In this document: piece by piece, positions 7,689 through 22,153 of the stretch
Position numbering within the stretch: position 1 is the first letter of the stretch
Layout of the letters: each line of letters begins with the position of its first letter
Source: Methanoculleus sp. 7T
GTDB lineage: Archaea; Halobacteriota; Methanomicrobia; Methanomicrobiales; Methanoculleaceae
Direction of reading: 5' to 3'
NCBI RefSeq assembly: GCF_023195915.1
Contig: NZ_JALPRP010000001.1
Location: 496,001-560,000 of the forward strand
Length of the DNA stretch: 64,000 nt
The notes under the pieces: generated by a model
Seen by the model: only the letters and a program-made list of their open reading frames with translations
Database searches by the model: none
What the model was told of the DNA's origin: nothing
Translations under genes and position numbers: made by a program

Positions 7689-8594
7689 CTTGATTTCCAC
7701 CGAGAAGTCACCACCGGACTCCGCCGGGGGTACCGGCCACGGCAGCACCGATCCCGGGGGAGCAAACCCCCGATATGCTCGCGAACCGGGCGCAGACCCG
7801 GCCAGGCCAAAGGCCGGGAGATCGGCGGCAAACGCCGGCGGTTCGAAGGGCAAACGGGGATCCGGGTTTCGCCCGAGGACCAGAAGCATGCCCGCCCAGA
7901 CCGCACTCTTCAGAAAGATATCGAGGAGCAGCCCCGCGAGCGATGTGGGGATTCCCGAAGTGATGCCGCGAAAATCGACGGGTTAGTTCCAAAAAAGGTA
8001 TTCGGGTGATGCAGGAGGTATTGGTGTTAGGAGGTATGGGGCTGCTCTCCGGGTGGTCGGAGGCAGACCCTGATGAATACGTTCTCATCCGAGTATATGA
8101 ACCCCATACCGCGCGGGGAGAAAGTGAACGGACATGGTGGCACACGCCAGGCCAAGCAGCCGCCGGGCCCCACCCATATATAAATGACCTCCACAGAAAC
8201 GCTCAGACGCCCGAACGTCCACTGAGACAATTGTTCATACGGGGAGGGCAACGATCGCGGCTTACAGACCCGATACGAGGACCCTGAAACTCGAGCGACC
8301 GTCCCGCAGAGGACATGACCCGACGTTCAAAACCCACGTGGACCACCCGAATTACGGCCCTGATGAATCCCCCAGACAACAACGATCAGATCTGTTGAGA
8401 CCCCATTCCGGTTCCGGCCTTCGTCCCCGCCCCCGATAAGGTTGGCACCGGACCGGGCTTGTTCCACGGGATCGCCGGCATAGCGGCGGAAAATCTCATC
8501 CCCCGGACTGCACACCCGGCAGTGCTCGAACTCTGCCTGCCCTCCGGGGCACGTATCGCGAGTCGCACCTTAACGGCGCTCCTGCTCTGTTCCC
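7689..8594. other. Long gap without a supported gene
   Basis: Several GC-rich open frames overlap here on both strands. A minus-strand frame at about 7656-7981 reads partly like a hydrophobic protein (SLAGLLLDIFLKSAVWAG), but it has no good start or recognised family and ends in low-complexity proline/alanine sequence. I leave it unassigned; it may be the tail of a decayed gene. Confidence 0.35.
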
Positions 8595-8890
8595 CCGGAA
8601 CATCGCATATCGCCACGCACGGCCCCCGCCCCCGAGGGGCGGGAAATCGACCGGCCGAAGGGCGGGAGCGTGAGAAACCCGAAGAGTTTCGAGTAACGAC
8701 GCCCCAGTAGGAGCGGAGTTTGAGCACCGCAGGTGTGAGTGAGGAGGCCGAAGGCCGGGCTGGGGACCACAACAGAAAGGAGTCCACTGGCGGCCCCTTG
8801 CGGGGAGGAGAGCCCGCCCCCCGAGTATGGCCCTAGGATTGCGACCTTCCGGAGCGAACAGGCCGGGTTTCAACAAAGCCCGAATTACGA
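8595..8890 (-). repeat. Dispersed hairpin-rich intergenic repeat, copy C
   Basis: Read on the minus strand, this block contains the GGCCTTCGGCC, TGCTCAAACTCCGCTCCTA, GAAACTC/GAGTTTC-like and CCCGCCCCTCGGGGGCGGGG modules in the same order as 54391-54485 on the plus strand. It also holds CGACCTTCCGGAGCGAACAG near 8842, shared with about 4700. The block is full of short hairpins with three-base loops and has no supported coding sequence. Confidence 0.6.
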
Positions 8891-9307
8891 CCGCACTCAA
8901 AGACCCGCGAGGCCCCCATGGATCACGCCCCGCAGCCGGGGCTGCCGACAAGAGCGGCGTTTCGCAGAGTGACGGCACCCGGCATGCATCCGCCCGGACA
9001 ACCTACCCGGGAGTCGACCCCACAAGGCCGGAAGCCCGCCGATTAGGGTCCGATTGGGGTTGAGCCACATCCAAACACCCCAAACATCAGTCCCGCCCCC
9101 GAGAACAAAGAGATAGATATAAACCACATAATGCTATACCTACAATGGGGCAGGGCAAATACGATACCGCAAGAGCATACAACCCAACCGGGTGCCCTGC
9201 AGCACACCCATTCTGCCCTATCGCCGTCCCACGACCACGGACATCACCGGCCGTTCAACCGACAAAGCGACTATTGAAATACCGATGTTGACAAGAAGGT
9301 ATGCAAA
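8891..9307. other. Gap before the 9308 gene, with a TATA-like site
   Basis: No gene is seen. AGATATAAACC near 9114-9124 is a plausible archaeal TATA element and may drive the 9308-11970 operon with a long leader. Confidence 0.3.
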
Positions 9308-12186: not shown

Positions 12187-15100
12187 ATGAACGGTAAACC
12201 ACAAATGAAGCAGAAGATCAACTCCGCGATCTCTTCCGGTGATCTGCGTGAGGTTGAGAAAGTAGTTTTGGATATCTCAGAAACTCAGACGCGCAAAGAG
12301 AAGAAATCGCTCTACGAGCAGATGAATGCCGCTCTCGTAAAGACAGCGTTCGAAGAGAACCAACCGGAACTCTTGAGTCAACTCGTCGAACCGACAAAAG
12401 AGGAGGTATTCGATCTTGTCCGGCGTGTTGCCGGGCTCTACCGCGAAAATAAGAAAGATGCGTGGTTCTCCGCAATATTTACCTTAGTCGACAAACTCGA
12501 CCGTAAGAGTCACCAATCCGATATCCTCGCCGAGATCTCCCGCGATCTTGTCCAGGCCGGGGTCGACACCGGAGACGTTCACTACATCAAGAAAGGGGAG
12601 GAGACATTCGATCAGATCAGCATCCGTAAATACCGCTCGGCAATCCTCACCGAGATTATCCCGCTCTTCATCCAGTATGGGCAGAAATATCAAAACGTCG
12701 ATATCATGCAGTATGCTCTCCAAATACTCTCCGAGATCGGCGATATATCAAAACAGGCCCAACTTCATGCTGATCTGGCGAGGGCAATCGCCGGTTCCGG
12801 TATCGAGGCAGGCGACATCAACCTTGTGATCAACGGGCTTTTGAGCGCCACCGAGATCAACCAGAAGATCCGGCGCACCAACTCGATCGCCGACATCGTG
12901 GACGCATCCTGGAAGTCGTCGTTGAAGAAGGAGATCTCCGATATCGAACAGATCATAGACGCTCTCTCGGGGATCCCGGAAGAACGGCTTACAGAAGTCC
13001 TTGCGGTTCTGACCGAGCAACTTCTCGACCGCCAGCGGGACAAGAAACAGGTCTACGCAAAACTGCTCAGGCTCGACGATGAGAAGCCCTGGGCGGGCCA
13101 GACCCTCGTCCTCGAACTCCTGAAGAAAGCGGAGCGGAGCGGAGAGCGCTGGTACCTCGAGAAGGCGTTTGAGTTCAACGCCCGGAGTACGGTGGAGACG
13201 CAACTCCCCATCGAGGAGATCGTCCTCTCCGGGATCGCGGTCGTCGAGAAGAGCGGCAACCCGACCATCCTCCTCGACATCACGCCACTGATCGACGAGT
13301 CGTGCGACGCCGCAAAGGCGGCCCAACTCTACCGGCAGATCACCGACGCACTCTCCCGGATGGGCGACTTCTACCATGCGATCGAGGTCATGAAGATGGC
13401 CAGCGCCAGCGCACAGAGGATCAACGCCCAATTTTTCGATACCAGTGTCCGCCTGACCAAAGAGGGTATCCGTCGCGACGAGATCGGACTCGTCCGCGAG
13501 AATATCCTCGCCGCACTGGAGATCGATATCGCCGACTCGCTGGTACACCAGGCGGTGACCGACTTCTGCAAGGAGTATGACTTCGATGAAGTCGTCAGGC
13601 ACATACCGGCCATAAAGGAACTTGTCAGGTCGCACCAGGCACAGGACACCCTGCTCCTTGAGTGCAACACCATCCTGATTGATCGCGGGTTCGTTCGCCA
13701 GAAAGACTCGTCCGCCCTTGTGGACTTGGTGAGCCAGATCGAACAGCAGACTCTGCGCGAACAGGCGATCTCGACCATCGCCGTAGAGATGGCAAAAATC
13801 GGCGTCTCCCGAAAAGACCGGGACCTCCTCCGGCGTGCAACCGGGCTCACCTGTGAGATCATGAACCAGCAGGCGCGGGCGGAGGCGCTGGGGGGCATCG
13901 TGGACCAGGCGGCCGTGCTCGCAGTAGAGGACGGCGACCTCGACCTCCTCCACGGGATGCGGGTCCTCTCCGCATCTCTGCTGGAGCGGGACTACTGCCT
14001 CTTTGCAATGGGCAAGGTGATCCACGGCCTGATCATGTACGGGATCGAGCAACTCTCGCTCCGGGCGCTCGATGAGGCGACCCAGATCCTCACCCAGATC
14101 ACAGACCCGTCCCTGCAGAGGCAACTCGTAGACCCCCTCATCGAGGGCTACGTCCGGGTCGGGAGCCTGCAGGCGGCAGACCAACTTTCCCGGGGGAAGG
14201 CCCGAGTCTTTGAGGAGATGATGGAACCGTTCGAGATCGCGCTCGACCTCCTCCAGACCAGCACCCCGCGCGAGGAAGTCTCGATCAAGATAGCGAGTTA
14301 CGTCGATATCATGCTCGAGTACACGCAGGTCTATGCGAGCCCGATCTTTGCCGTCCCCATGGCCCTCTTCTCTCTGGAGATCGAGGGCGAGTACGAGCGG
14401 ACCGCCATGATCCAGCGGATCCTCACCATCTTCACCGACTACATCAAGGAGTTCGACTCGGCCGACCCCTACGAGGTGATGGCCTACCTCCTCGAGGGCA
14501 TCGAGGGGGCGACGGCGGCGCCGCAGGTGCTTGAGTTGATGTACCGCCTCTTCGAGCACACGGGCGACGTCTACGCCCGGTATTCGGGGATGTACCGTAT
14601 CGTGAGCGCCTACTCGGCTCTCGGAAACGTTGAGCGGGCCGAGGAGATCATCCGGAGGCTCCACGAGACCATCGGTACCATCGCCGAGCCGTCCATCCGC
14701 GCGATCATGCTCTCGGACCTTGCCGGGCTCATGGCGGCGATCGACCATGCCGCAGCAAGGGGGTACCTTGCCGAGGCGCAGGGGATGCTTGAGTTCGTCG
14801 GGCCGGAGCGGGAGGCGTTCGTCAGGAAGAACCTGATATACGCGGCAAGAAGCCTCAACGCCGTCAACCGGCAGGAGAAGGATATCGACTGGGCGGTCGA
14901 GCAGGTCGGCAAGATCGAGGACCCGGTGGAGTACGTGGATGCTCTCGCAGCCGTCTTCGATATGGTCAGCGAGCCTGCACAGAGAAAAGAGATCCTCTCG
15001 GCTATGTGCCACACCGTGGTGAGCATCCCCTCTCCCTATATCCGGCTCTCGATGCTCTTTGACGTGGCGCAGTTCGCCGAGACCTACGGCGATGAAGAAG

Positions 15101-15753
15101 AGGTCGAAGAACTGCTGGACGGCATGGAGAGGACCGCCGGATACGTCCAGATCCCGTTCATCACCGCGATGACGCGGCAGCGGATGGCTCAGATGCTCTT
15201 CTCGTTCTACCGGAAGAGCGGGAAACCGGCCATCCAGCAGCGGGCCGTCGATATCGTCTCAACGATCGACGACGACAGGATCCGCTACAGCCTGATGGTC
15301 CAACTTGAGCAGGCGATGCCCCAATCCTGGAAGAACACGGTCTACGGCAGGATCCTTGACTGCCGCGACAAGATCCGGAGCGGCGAGTATACCACGAAGG
15401 ATATGGTCGCGCTCGACCGGGCGATACGGGCGGCGCCCGACCGGGCGAAGCGGGCGGTTTATTACACCGAACTCTTCCTCATCGCCAGGAACGCAGGACA
15501 GCAGGAGGTTGCGGACAGGATGCTCCTCTGCGCGCTCGAAGAGGCGCGGATCATCAGGCCGCTCTCACGACGGGCCTTTGTCCTCGGAGACATGGCGTGC
15601 CGGGTTTATGCGGAGCGCTACGAGGACCGGTCGAGGGAGATCCTCGACATGGCCGTGAGCGAGGCCCTCAACATCCGCGACTCGGCGGTCAGAGACGAGG
15701 TATACGACGAACTGGATATGTCCGTGCGGATCATCCAGGAGCACTGGCTGTGA
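12187..15753 (+). CDS. Very large soluble alpha-helical repeat protein, function unknown
   Basis: A 1188-residue protein with no signal peptide, membrane segment or recognisable catalytic motif. It is made almost entirely of amphipathic helices with repeating signatures such as a hydrophobic helix ending in D/E-A-A, A-x-x-L and LLD/LLE, resembling TPR/HEAT-type solenoids though units are too diverged to count by eye. It starts MNGKPQMKQKINSAISSGDL; the second methionine is an alternative start. It has its own strong TATA box at 12129 and overlaps the acylphosphatase start by two bases. Such solenoids are usually scaffolds. I recall similar giant proteins in other Methanomicrobiales but cannot name the family. 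Confidence 0.75.
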   Translation: MNGKPQMKQKINSAISSGDLREVEKVVLDISETQTRKEKKSLYEQMNAALVKTAFEENQPELLSQLVEPTKEEVFDLVRRVAGLYRENKKDAWFSAIFTLVDKLDRKSHQSDILAEISRDLVQAGVDTGDVHYIKKGEETFDQISIRKYRSAILTEIIPLFIQYGQKYQNVDIMQYALQILSEIGDISKQAQLHADLARAIAGSGIEAGDINLVINGLLSATEINQKIRRTNSIADIVDASWKSSLKKEISDIEQIIDALSGIPEERLTEVLAVLTEQLLDRQRDKKQVYAKLLRLDDEKPWAGQTLVLELLKKAERSGERWYLEKAFEFNARSTVETQLPIEEIVLSGIAVVEKSGNPTILLDITPLIDESCDAAKAAQLYRQITDALSRMGDFYHAIEVMKMASASAQRINAQFFDTSVRLTKEGIRRDEIGLVRENILAALEIDIADSLVHQAVTDFCKEYDFDEVVRHIPAIKELVRSHQAQDTLLLECNTILIDRGFVRQKDSSALVDLVSQIEQQTLREQAISTIAVEMAKIGVSRKDRDLLRRATGLTCEIMNQQARAEALGGIVDQAAVLAVEDGDLDLLHGMRVLSASLLERDYCLFAMGKVIHGLIMYGIEQLSLRALDEATQILTQITDPSLQRQLVDPLIEGYVRVGSLQAADQLSRGKARVFEEMMEPFEIALDLLQTSTPREEVSIKIASYVDIMLEYTQVYASPIFAVPMALFSLEIEGEYERTAMIQRILTIFTDYIKEFDSADPYEVMAYLLEGIEGATAAPQVLELMYRLFEHTGDVYARYSGMYRIVSAYSALGNVERAEEIIRRLHETIGTIAEPSIRAIMLSDLAGLMAAIDHAAARGYLAEAQGMLEFVGPEREAFVRKNLIYAARSLNAVNRQEKDIDWAVEQVGKIEDPVEYVDALAAVFDMVSEPAQRKEILSAMCHTVVSIPSPYIRLSMLFDVAQFAETYGDEEEVEELLDGMERTAGYVQIPFITAMTRQRMAQMLFSFYRKSGKPAIQQRAVDIVSTIDDDRIRYSLMVQLEQAMPQSWKNTVYGRILDCRDKIRSGEYTTKDMVALDRAIRAAPDRAKRAVYYTELFLIARNAGQQEVADRMLLCALEEARIIRPLSRRAFVLGDMACRVYAERYEDRSREILDMAVSEALNIRDSAVRDEVYDELDMSVRIIQEHWL

Positions 15754-16043
15754 AGACGATCGAGATCAGGATCTCGGGAAGAGTGCAGGGTGTCGGCTTT
15801 CGTGCATGCATACGGAGGATCGCAACCAACCTCGGCGTCGGCGGCGAGGCGATGAACCTCCCCAACGGGAGGGTGCTCATCACCGCCACCGGCGAACCCG
15901 TCGTCCTCGATAAATTCGTCTCCATGCTGTATGGGTGCCCCCGGGCCGTCATCAGGGATCTCTCCCAGAGGGAGGTTCCTCTTGCCCCCTACGGGGAGTT
16001 TACGATCCAGCGGGGCGCCGACGCCTACCAGTACAGCACGTGA
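15750..16043 (+). CDS. acyP: Acylphosphatase
   Basis: A 97-residue protein read from the GTG at 15750, which overlaps the TGA of the preceding gene, so it is translationally coupled. It contains the family signature GRVQGVGFRACIRR, with the catalytic arginine in GFR, and NLPNGRV, where the conserved catalytic asparagine is expected. It hydrolyses acyl phosphates such as acetyl or carbamoyl phosphate. The C-terminal part, after about residue 60, is less typical. Its 3' end overlaps the convergent cas1 gene by 19 bases. Confidence 0.85.
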   Translation: MKTIEIRISGRVQGVGFRACIRRIATNLGVGGEAMNLPNGRVLITATGEPVVLDKFVSMLYGCPRAVIRDLSQREVPLAPYGEFTIQRGADAYQYST

Positions 16044-16960
16044 AACTCGGCATTCTCAAGAAGCGCCTCCCGCAGGATGCGCACCTGCGTATCGATCCGG
16101 GACTGCTCGATCGATTCGCGAAGCGCCTCCACCAGCCGGGTTGAGAGGCTCCCGTCAAGATAGCACCTCTTTTCGCTGCACTCGTAGTCTCCGTCCGAGA
16201 CTCCGTCCCGGGCAAACCCAAGGACGGTGCGGTCCACCATCCTCGCTTTCTGAGGTTCGATGAGATCGTAGACAAGGCTCCCGGCTCCCTCGTGGAGCAT
16301 GCCGAGGTCAGGGTCGAGATGGGCGCCGACGAGGGAGACACAGCAGTTGCCGTAGAGCATCGCGTACCCGAGCGAGAACATGGCGTTGACCGGGTCGCGG
16401 TAAGGGCGGCTTGCCCTGCGCCGGAACCCAAGTTCCGGCGGGAGCGTGCGGGAGAGTACCTCATAGTACATATCAGTGGTCAGGCGGGAGAGCCTCCGCA
16501 GTTCCTCCATGGTGACCGAGGCCGCAAGTTCCTCCCTGGCTTGGTGAAGGAAGTCCTGTTCCCCGGCATAGAAGAGATCCTGCCCGGCATGGCCGGAGAG
16601 TTCCTCAAGGAGGAGGAGCCTCGACTGCAACCCGGCCGTTGCGAGTGGCTGGGCGAACCGATGGGGGGCGGCACGTTCCTGGGCGAGGCGCACCGCCCCG
16701 TCCGGCCGGTAGCCGTAGGGGTAGAGGTAGCCGACGGGCGTGCCGTCGATATCGAAGAAGGTGATGGCAGCGCCGGCTTTGAGGAGGTTTGTCACCGCCG
16801 AGGTGTGCAGGGTATGGCCGCCGACGACCAGGAGGTGCTCCACCTCTTGGAGCGGGTACCGCCGGGTGGCGCTCCCGTGCGCGACGACCAGTTCCTGTGT
16901 CGTCGCCTTGATGTGCCCCCCGTAGCCGATGACGGGGAGCCAGGGTTCCGTCGCTGTCAT
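16025..16960 (-). CDS. cas1: Solo Cas1-family protein (no cas2, no CRISPR nearby)
   Basis: A 311-residue Cas1: N-terminal beta-sandwich (VIGYGGHIKA, LLVVGGHTLHTSAVTNLLKAGAAITFFD) and C-terminal helical catalytic domain. The domain contains RPYRDPVNAMFSLGYAMLYG, LVGAHLDPDLGMLHEG and SLVYDLIEP. H223, D232 and E235 occupy the expected C-terminal metal-ligand places. The first ligand, normally a glutamate in an E-G-x-A-A-x-x-Y context, aligns by eye with S158 in RRLSRLTTDMYY, so the site may be altered. No other cas gene or repeat array is in the window. It matches the stand-alone Cas1 proteins known from Methanomicrobia, distinct from casposons, as no polymerase is adjacent. Confidence 0.88.
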   Translation of the reverse strand: MTATEPWLPVIGYGGHIKATTQELVVAHGSATRRYPLQEVEHLLVVGGHTLHTSAVTNLLKAGAAITFFDIDGTPVGYLYPYGYRPDGAVRLAQERAAPHRFAQPLATAGLQSRLLLLEELSGHAGQDLFYAGEQDFLHQAREELAASVTMEELRRLSRLTTDMYYEVLSRTLPPELGFRRRASRPYRDPVNAMFSLGYAMLYGNCCVSLVGAHLDPDLGMLHEGAGSLVYDLIEPQKARMVDRTVLGFARDGVSDGDYECSEKRCYLDGSLSTRLVEALRESIEQSRIDTQVRILREALLENAEFHVLYW

Positions 16961-20370: not shown

Positions 20371-20733
20371 TCAGACGGGAGCCCGGGGCACCTCCGGGCC
20401 CTCGTCTTTCCTGAACATGTGAACCCTCCCCACAACCTGCCGGACCGGGATGACGAATGCAAGCCCCATCCCAGGCCGGTCCAGTTCGGCGGCGGCGACG
20501 ATCGCCGCGAGCACCGCATCGGTTCGGGATGCGGCGACGACCGTCAGGATGATCTCTTTCTCAGGCTCGATGGCGATCCCAAGAAGCGTCTTTACCTCGT
20601 GGATCCCGGTCCCGCGGCCGAGGAGGATGGTCCCCCCCTCGGCCCCGGCCCGGCGGGCCGCTGCGATCACCGGCTCGGACCAGCCTCTTTTGACAATTGT
20701 GACGATCAGTTCGTTATCGGACTCGTTATTCAC
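20371..20733 (-). CDS. PII-like signalling protein paired with DUF1538 transporters
   Basis: A 120-residue protein with the ferredoxin-like PII core: LIVTIVKRGWSEPVIAAARRAGAEGGTILLGRG, then EKEIILTVVAASRTDAVLAAIVAAAEL and GLAFVIPVRQVVG. It lacks a classical uridylylation T-loop; the loop region is short (TGIHEVKTLLGIAIEPEK). It begins with GTG and overlaps the end of the upstream DUF1538 gene by four bases. Its location after two DUF1538 membrane proteins suggests a soluble regulator of that transporter, as GlnK is for Amt. That role is inference. Confidence 0.8.
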   Translation of the reverse strand: MNNESDNELIVTIVKRGWSEPVIAAARRAGAEGGTILLGRGTGIHEVKTLLGIAIEPEKEIILTVVAASRTDAVLAAIVAAAELDRPGMGLAFVIPVRQVVGRVHMFRKDEGPEVPRAPV

Positions 20734-21434
20734 GTCTCTTCACCTCGTCTTCTCCGGTAGAGGATGCCGAGCATCAGCACCGAGAGTATGGGTGCAAGCG
20801 CTATCAGCGCAATCAGCCCGAAGCCGTCGGTGACCGGGTTACGGCCCTCGATCCCTGCCGCGACCCCGACGGCGAGGGAGAGGAGGAAGGTGACCGCCAT
20901 CGGGCCGGTGGCGACACCCCCTGAGTCGAACGCTACCCCGACAAACTCTCCGTCCGAGAAGAGGAGAAGGAGGATAGCAAGGAAGTAGCCGGGGATGACG
21001 AAATAGAGCAGCGGGATCGCATAGACGAGACGGGCCATCCCGAGGGATACGGCGACGGCGACACCGAAAGAGAGGGTATAGAGGATCAGGGACTCCCCGA
21101 TGTAGCCGCTCGACGACTCTTCGACCTGATAACAGAGGACACGGACCGCCGGTTCCGCGTAAGTTGTAAGGAACCCGAGGAGAAATCCGAACGGTATCAG
21201 CAGCCATCGCTGGTCGAACGCGGCGAGGGCCTCCCCGATCTCCCGGCCCGCCGGGAGGAACGCGACATTGACGCCTTGGAGGAAGAGGACCATGCCGAGG
21301 AACGCAAGCAGGATGCCCTTCCCGAGGTTTGCGACGTAGACCCGCGGGAGTTTCAGGTAGAGCGCTTGGAACACCCCAAAGAAGAGGAGCAGGGGAAGGA
21401 GCGCCCGAGCCACTTCGAAGACGATCCGGTCCAC
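20730..21434 (-). CDS. DUF1538 membrane protein (second of pair)
   Basis: A 234-residue, very hydrophobic protein with about seven membrane segments, GTG start. Recognisable DUF1538 features are the opening ALLPLLLFFGVFQALYLKLP, the conserved acidic loop TTYAEPAVRVL after the third segment, and the glycine-rich AFDSGGVATGPMAVTFLLSLAVGVA near the C-terminus, which looks like a re-entrant or substrate-binding turn. It ends in a short arginine cluster in the cytoplasm. It is 23 bases downstream of a paralogue and overlaps a PII-like gene. A heteromeric transporter of unknown substrate is likely. Confidence 0.85.
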   Translation of the reverse strand: MDRIVFEVARALLPLLLFFGVFQALYLKLPRVYVANLGKGILLAFLGMVLFLQGVNVAFLPAGREIGEALAAFDQRWLLIPFGFLLGFLTTYAEPAVRVLCYQVEESSSGYIGESLILYTLSFGVAVAVSLGMARLVYAIPLLYFVIPGYFLAILLLLFSDGEFVGVAFDSGGVATGPMAVTFLLSLAVGVAAGIEGRNPVTDGFGLIALIALAPILSVLMLGILYRRRRGEET

Positions 21435-21457
21435 CCCGTCGAGGAGCGCCGCCGCCG

Positions 21458-22153
21458 TCAGGAGTAGACCACCCCCATCACCATGACGCCGAGGATGGGG
21501 CCGAGCGAGGCGAGCCCGATCAGGCCGAAACCGTCTGCAAGGGCCGATCGTCCGGCAAGGACCGCACTGACGCCGACCCCGAGAGCCAGGATGACCGGGA
21601 CCGTCAGGGGCCCGGTCGTCACGCCGCCCGCATCAAACGCGATGGCAAGGAAGTCCGGCGGAATGAAAGGAGCAAGGAGGAGGACGATGCCGTATCCTGC
21701 GGCGAAGAGATAGGCTATCGGGATCGCGAAGATGATCCGGAGGACCGCCACGGCGACAAAGAACCCGACGCCGACCGCGATGACGACGATCAGGGGCTCC
21801 TGCGGGATACCGCCCCGGGAGACGGTATCCACCATGCCCGCAAGGACACGGACGTCGGGCTCCGCCACGGTGGCAAGGAACCCGAAGAGGAACGCTCCGA
21901 GGACAACAAGGGCGAGCGAGCCCCGGGCGGGAAGTTCAGACCCTATCGCCTCGCCGACCGGAAGGAGGCCCGCCTTCACGCCTGAGAGAAAGAGCGCGAT
22001 CCCGAGAACGACCATGCCGCTCCCGAGCAGGAATTGGAGGAGGGCGGAGGGCGGCACCTTGAGCACGCCGACCTCAAGGATGACGATGACGAGGATGATG
22101 GGGAGGACTGCACGGATAACCTCGGTGGTCGACTTCCTGATATCCCGCATCAT
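21458..22153 (-). CDS. DUF1538 membrane protein (first of pair)
   Basis: A 231-residue paralogue of the next gene with the same layout: LPIILVIVILEVGVLKVPPS at the start, the acidic loop ATVAEPDVRVLAGMVD, and AFDAGGVTTGPLTVPVILALGVGVSAVLAG near the end. The matching EP-DVR/EP-AVR and FD-GGV-TGP motifs in both chains look functionally important. It is the first gene of a three-gene operon ending in the PII-like regulator. The substrate is unknown. Confidence 0.85.
   Translation of the reverse strand: MMRDIRKSTTEVIRAVLPIILVIVILEVGVLKVPPSALLQFLLGSGMVVLGIALFLSGVKAGLLPVGEAIGSELPARGSLALVVLGAFLFGFLATVAEPDVRVLAGMVDTVSRGGIPQEPLIVVIAVGVGFFVAVAVLRIIFAIPIAYLFAAGYGIVLLLAPFIPPDFLAIAFDAGGVTTGPLTVPVILALGVGVSAVLAGRSALADGFGLIGLASLGPILGVMVMGVVYS

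Follow-up and report, generated by a model that had tools for sequence, protein, structure and literature searches.

A solo Cas1 with an incomplete active site, conserved across Methanomicrobiales and probably serving a role other than spacer integration

A description of Cas1-solo group 1, the described group nearest to the gene analysed here, is reportedly to be credited to Makarova 2013, among other sources. According to Krupovic et al. 2014 (PMC4046053), the group is confined to Methanomicrobiales, shows no horizontal transfer and has no member with a full active site; it is covered also in PMC9939771. Such genes were called probably vestigial in a 2022 paper (PMC9755687), and no expression or genetic data for the solo cas1 gene turned up in literature searches. 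For another archaeal Cas1, that of Haloferax volcanii, a role in chromosome repair has been proposed that requires the active site; the E158A variant is described as catalytically dead and fails in repair (PMC9051519).

The window examined here, the whole 64-kb stretch of Methanoculleus sp. 7T DNA that was analysed, carries a solo cas1 gene. Judged from its order-wide distribution and from the single clade that it forms with its orthologues, the gene appears to belong to Cas1-solo group 1; since a 2014 paper (PMC4046053) had already described the group with its defective active site, it represents a further member of a known group. The best-supported role would be that of a non-catalytic Cas1 which serves chromosome maintenance by binding either branched DNA or a partner, a reading that we hold with as much doubt as confidence.

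The solo cas1 gene and its surroundings

The original prediction described a complete Cas1 (Table 1), and this description was borne out: the open reading frame is exact, the Pfam profile PF01867 matches residues 10-281 (E=2.2e-51), NCBIfam cas1 also matches, and an AlphaFold2 model built from 55 aligned sequences reaches a pLDDT of 92.9 and a pTM of 0.92. When the model was compared with the PDB by Foldseek, Cas1 proteins and a casposase ranked highest (4n06, 6opm, 7kft; TM-score 0.80-0.85 by query length). Profile and fold both place the protein in the Cas1 family, and its Cas1 fold is predicted to be intact.

The gene had also been described as standing alone, and it does: the 64 kb contain no CRISPR-like repeats, no Rfam CRISPR elements and no second Cas1, and among the nine nearest neighbours of solo cas1 there are no cas genes and no PolB, HNH or HTH genes, while synteny is fixed. 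Across the order, 83 of 100 loci have a convergent acylphosphatase gene beside solo cas1; this gene is a conserved neighbour and, as far as known, is not recognized as a functional partner. Genes for a phosphomutase, an AMP-ligase and an ACT-domain protein lie beyond it. Clustering of the neighbours at 60 loci revealed no conserved operon partner in the same direction near cas1. The large protein probably composed of helical repeats (Table 1) is conserved next to the acylphosphatase and cas1 pair in roughly half of the loci of the order. Elsewhere in the window, a P-II-like protein adjoins two DUF1538 proteins.

Table 1. Coordinates of the features discussed (window positions unless another location is given)
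Feature	Position	Strand	Remark	Basis
Solo cas1, 311 aa	16025..16960	(-)	start ATG 16960, stop 16025-16027	ORF list, Pfam; AlphaFold model
Codon 156 (Arg)	16493..16495	(-)	solo-invariant; Gly in most CRISPR Cas1s	
Codon 158 (Ser)	16487..16489	(-)	E. coli E141 position, first metal ligand	alignments
Codons 164-167 (MYYE)	16460..16469	(-)	solo signature	
Codon 171 (Arg)	16448..16450	(-)	solo-invariant	
Codon 223 (His)	16292..16294	(-)	E. coli H208 position	alignments
Codon 232 (Asp)	16265..16267	(-)	E. coli D218 position	
Codon 235 (Glu)	16256..16258	(-)	E. coli D221 position	alignments
Codons 265-266 (Arg-Cys)	16163..16168	(-)	solo-specific pair, nearly invariant	
Acylphosphatase	15744..16043	(+)	convergent with cas1, 19-bp overlap at cas1 3' end	
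1188-aa protein	12187-15753	(+)	no Pfam match, probably helical repeats	
P-II-like protein and DUF1538 proteins	20371-22153	(-)		
Type I-E CRISPR-Cas locus L113	G000:C1:58000-77000		same contig, ~440 kb from solo cas1	
Solo cas1 L093	genome G125, 7972-8895	(-)		

The former active site in the window protein and in the family

The serine that had been placed at the position of the first metal-ligand glutamate is indeed found there by sequence alignment. The phmmer alignments with solved Cas1 chains set, without gaps, the glutamate of the G-I-E-G motif over S158. Column 158 holds Glu in 19 of 19 CRISPR Cas1s of Methanomicrobiales but Ser in the window protein, and the register of this column is fixed by Tyr165, which no aligned sequence lacks. 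E. coli numbering was transferred through the Cas1e of the same genome (Table 1; K224 corresponds to 238), and by this alignment H223, D232 and E235 are retained, as had been proposed. The quartet of the window protein is S-H-D-E, and the E-H-D-D/E metal site of a CRISPR Cas1 integrase is absent. Glutamates 152, 153 and 167, considered as substitute metal ligands, were rejected on alignment register and helix geometry: all three are out of register, and E167 sits on the side of the predicted helix 151-170 opposite S158, 180 degrees round. The possibility raised by the original prediction itself, that E152 or E167 occupies the metal site, is contradicted by the same evidence.

Residue counts over 144 solo Cas1 orthologues give a wider picture. 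Position 158 is occupied by His in 64, Ser in 36, Glu in 11, Phe in 10, Tyr in 6, Gln in 5, Asp in 5, Ala in 3, Asn in 3 and Leu in 1. Every member of the window's genus (32/32) has Ser158, which is rare elsewhere, so that the serine, whose conservation the original prediction had proposed to check, proved to be a genus marker, with His the commonest residue family-wide; as read from the alignment, what characterizes the family is that Glu at 158 has gone, not that serine stands there. Position 223 is His in 78 orthologues and position 232 is Asp in 142, while 235 is Glu in 81, Asp in 47, Asn in 12, Ala in 3 and Gly in 1, hence acidic in 128. The catalytic quartet is incomplete in 143 of the 144 members. 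The sole E-H-D-E quartet belongs to L093, which counts against the non-catalytic reading; its genus-mates have E-N-D-E or E-K-D-E, that is, N or K at 223. Three members of one genus (L049, L051 and L053; genus g13, family f3) show a short insertion beside 223 and aromatic residues (F/Y) at 158 and 223.

By parsimony, the tree requires no fewer than 22 changes at 158, 29 at 223, 20 at 235 and 2 at 232, and 18 of the 29 or more at 223 are exchanges between His and another residue. Of the ten columns that never vary among the 19 CRISPR Cas1s of the order, four (E158, H223, E235 and F237) are lost in the solo family, which holds Q94, Y165, R182, N192, D232 and D243 at ≥99%. It has also fixed residues of its own, with E134, R156, E167 and R171 each in 144/144, C266 in 143/144 and R265 in 142/144. 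Conservation along helix 151-170 has flipped from the catalytic to the opposite face, the moment lying at 33 degrees in CRISPR Cas1s and at -176 degrees in the solo family. These counts show three of the four metal-ligand positions as released from selection, and the fold, the other Cas1 invariants and the new charged invariants as strongly constrained. A loss of Cas1 chemistry in the solo family is well supported by this sequence comparison.

It may be supposed that the protein has kept an enzymatic activity at a modified metal site, in which D232 and E/D235 together with H158 and/or H223 bind metal and serve a nuclease or another hydrolase; the site would consist of two His and two carboxylates, and S158 lineages such as that of the window would manage on three ligands. 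The corresponding quartets (158-223-232-235) are common and widely spread, HHDE occurring in 18/144 and HHDD in 14/144, and the near-invariance of D232 and the mostly acidic position 235 mean that metal might still bind, which counts against the preferred explanation. However, frequent change at 158, 223 and 235, the genus with F/Y at both 158 and 223, and the abolition of Haloferax Cas1 function by Ala at the equivalent Glu (PMC9051519) make such an enzyme unlikely.

For a non-catalytic Cas1 binding branched DNA or a maintenance partner, the basic residues near the old site are relevant: R155 is found in 89% and R156 in 100% of the family, and positions 159 (R159) and 238 (K238) are basic in 81% and 92%. 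The median pI of solo Cas1 is 6.1 (acidic) vs 8.95 for CRISPR Cas1s, although acidity as an argument against DNA binding is weakened by several CRISPR Cas1s of the order being acidic as well. Taken together, the local arginines would favour phosphate binding, and the overall acidic charge would speak mildly against it. Were nucleic-acid binding gone altogether, the Cas1 dimer fold would be reused for partner contact in a protein scaffold or regulator. The acidic overall charge, the charged residues newly invariant on the helix face away from the catalytic site, the Arg-Cys pair 265-266 and the location among metabolic genes are all consistent with this, but the retention of basic R155, R182 and K238, the arginines gained beside the old active site, and neighbours that are not co-directional and include no conserved partner gene render a scaffold improbable.

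Descent, selection and relation to CRISPR

Solo cas1 is present in 217 of 232 Methanomicrobiales genomes and in 133 of the 135 high-quality ones, carriers including Methanoculleus, Methanogenium, Methanoregula, Methanolinea and Methanocalculus; a class-level search covers the same 232 genomes. Outside the order no orthologue was detected in a phylum sample of 394 genomes, in which solo matches score at least ~380 bits and the best outsider 158.5. The solo Cas1s form a single clade with support 100, apart from CRISPR Cas1s. On the gene tree the six host families are separated near-perfectly (6 changes, the least possible being 5), and the proposed vertical retention thus gains support from an order-wide phylogeny that tracks host families. 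The reading frame is open over the whole order, and dN/dS has a median of 0.165 and a maximum of 0.29 over 465 close pairs, comparable with the housekeeping neighbours, for which the same method of counting yields 0.14-0.23. Solo cas1 is under purifying selection and hence maintained. As its metal-binding residues are lost yet its conservation is housekeeping-like, the protein probably has a different job.

Elsewhere in the same genome there is a complete type I-E system, whose cas1e and cas2e are accompanied by an array with dozens of repeats spaced 61 bp apart; the linked cas2 and array expected for a CRISPR Cas1 integrase are absent from the solo locus. Among 57 high-quality genomes, 18 have the solo protein as their sole Cas1 and possess neither Cas2 nor Cas2e, from which it follows that its role is independent of CRISPR adaptation. 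Spacer integration, deemed improbable from the start, is accordingly disfavoured by the lost first ligand, by the genome's own type I-E system and by these solo-only genomes; a CRISPR-cas locus elsewhere in the genome that uses the solo protein, which had been named as the contrary case, is countered by the separate cas1e of the type I-E system. Two genomes, G105 and G108, have an intact solo cas1 alongside fragments of a CRISPR-type Cas1 that contain an internal stop.

The protein might instead join active Cas1 as a dominant-negative or regulatory subunit and in this way modulate casposons or CRISPR adaptation; the co-occurrence of an active CRISPR Cas1 in the window's genome and in many others could be cited for this. 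As a general role this is disfavoured, and we regard it as very improbable, because the gene is kept in the solo-only genomes and the coexisting CRISPR Cas1s are of very different types. That it is a functionless relic, as suggested in print (PMC9755687), would fit the decay of the active site but is barely tenable in view of the dN/dS, the near-universal presence, the open frames and the many invariant residues. The solo Cas1 is so neither a spacer integrase nor vestigial.

Possible role and comparison with known systems

In the preferred explanation, a non-catalytic Cas1 holding branched DNA or a partner, a Cas1 branch would have been fixed in the Methanomicrobiales ancestor as a single-gene core chromosomal function, and the solo protein would act without cutting or joining DNA. 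Its Cas1-type dimer, assumed from the fold, would hold either a chromosome-maintenance partner protein or nucleic acid, for which branched or flapped DNA is the likeliest candidate. The DNA binding or branch recognition that the original prediction had suggested would thus be compatible with the data. Phosphate contacts could be provided by the arginines acquired next to the old active site (R155, R156, R159) and by the kept R182 and K238, and the invariant stripe R156-D163-E167-R171 on the opposite helix face may serve internal packing or partner binding. Since Haloferax Cas1 with the equivalent E-to-A change is treated as dead and fails in repair (PMC9051519), a repair role of the solo protein could not rest on that chemistry. 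More tentatively, and with doubt somewhat outweighing confidence, it may be hypothesized that Cas1 was domesticated in the order's ancestor, giving up its chemistry to become a core, CRISPR-independent chromosome-maintenance protein with invariants of its own (R156, MYYE 164-167, R171 and R265-C266). A Cas1 free of its catalytic residues and kept by nearly a whole order, even without CRISPR, is a natural example that argues strongly for a role of Cas1 other than integration, and its conservation argues against the vestigial view of such genes (PMC9755687).

With CRISPR Cas1, of which one of the highest-scoring examples in the order adjoins type III-B cmr genes, the solo protein shares fold, length and the residues Q94, Y165, R182, N192, D232 and D243, whereas it lacks the first ligand, Cas2 and an array, carries RxxR in place of GxEG and forms its separate clade. 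The casposase (Cas1-solo group 2) likewise has a Cas1 fold without CRISPR, 6opm being among the best fold matches, but the solo protein lacks the catalytic quartet, and neither its fixed synteny nor its host-like tree gives a sign of mobility. Haloferax volcanii Cas1 is also archaeal, although its repair role needs the active-site Glu that is absent here. From Cas1-solo group 1 the window gene does not differ in kind: it too is found in Methanomicrobiales only, stands alone, is vertically inherited and has an incomplete active site. What is new are the near-universality, the purifying selection, the retention without CRISPR, the residue composition at position 158, the invariants specific to the solo family and the one E-H-D-E exception, L093 of genome G125, which runs contrary to the published view that the full set is found in no member (PMC4046053).
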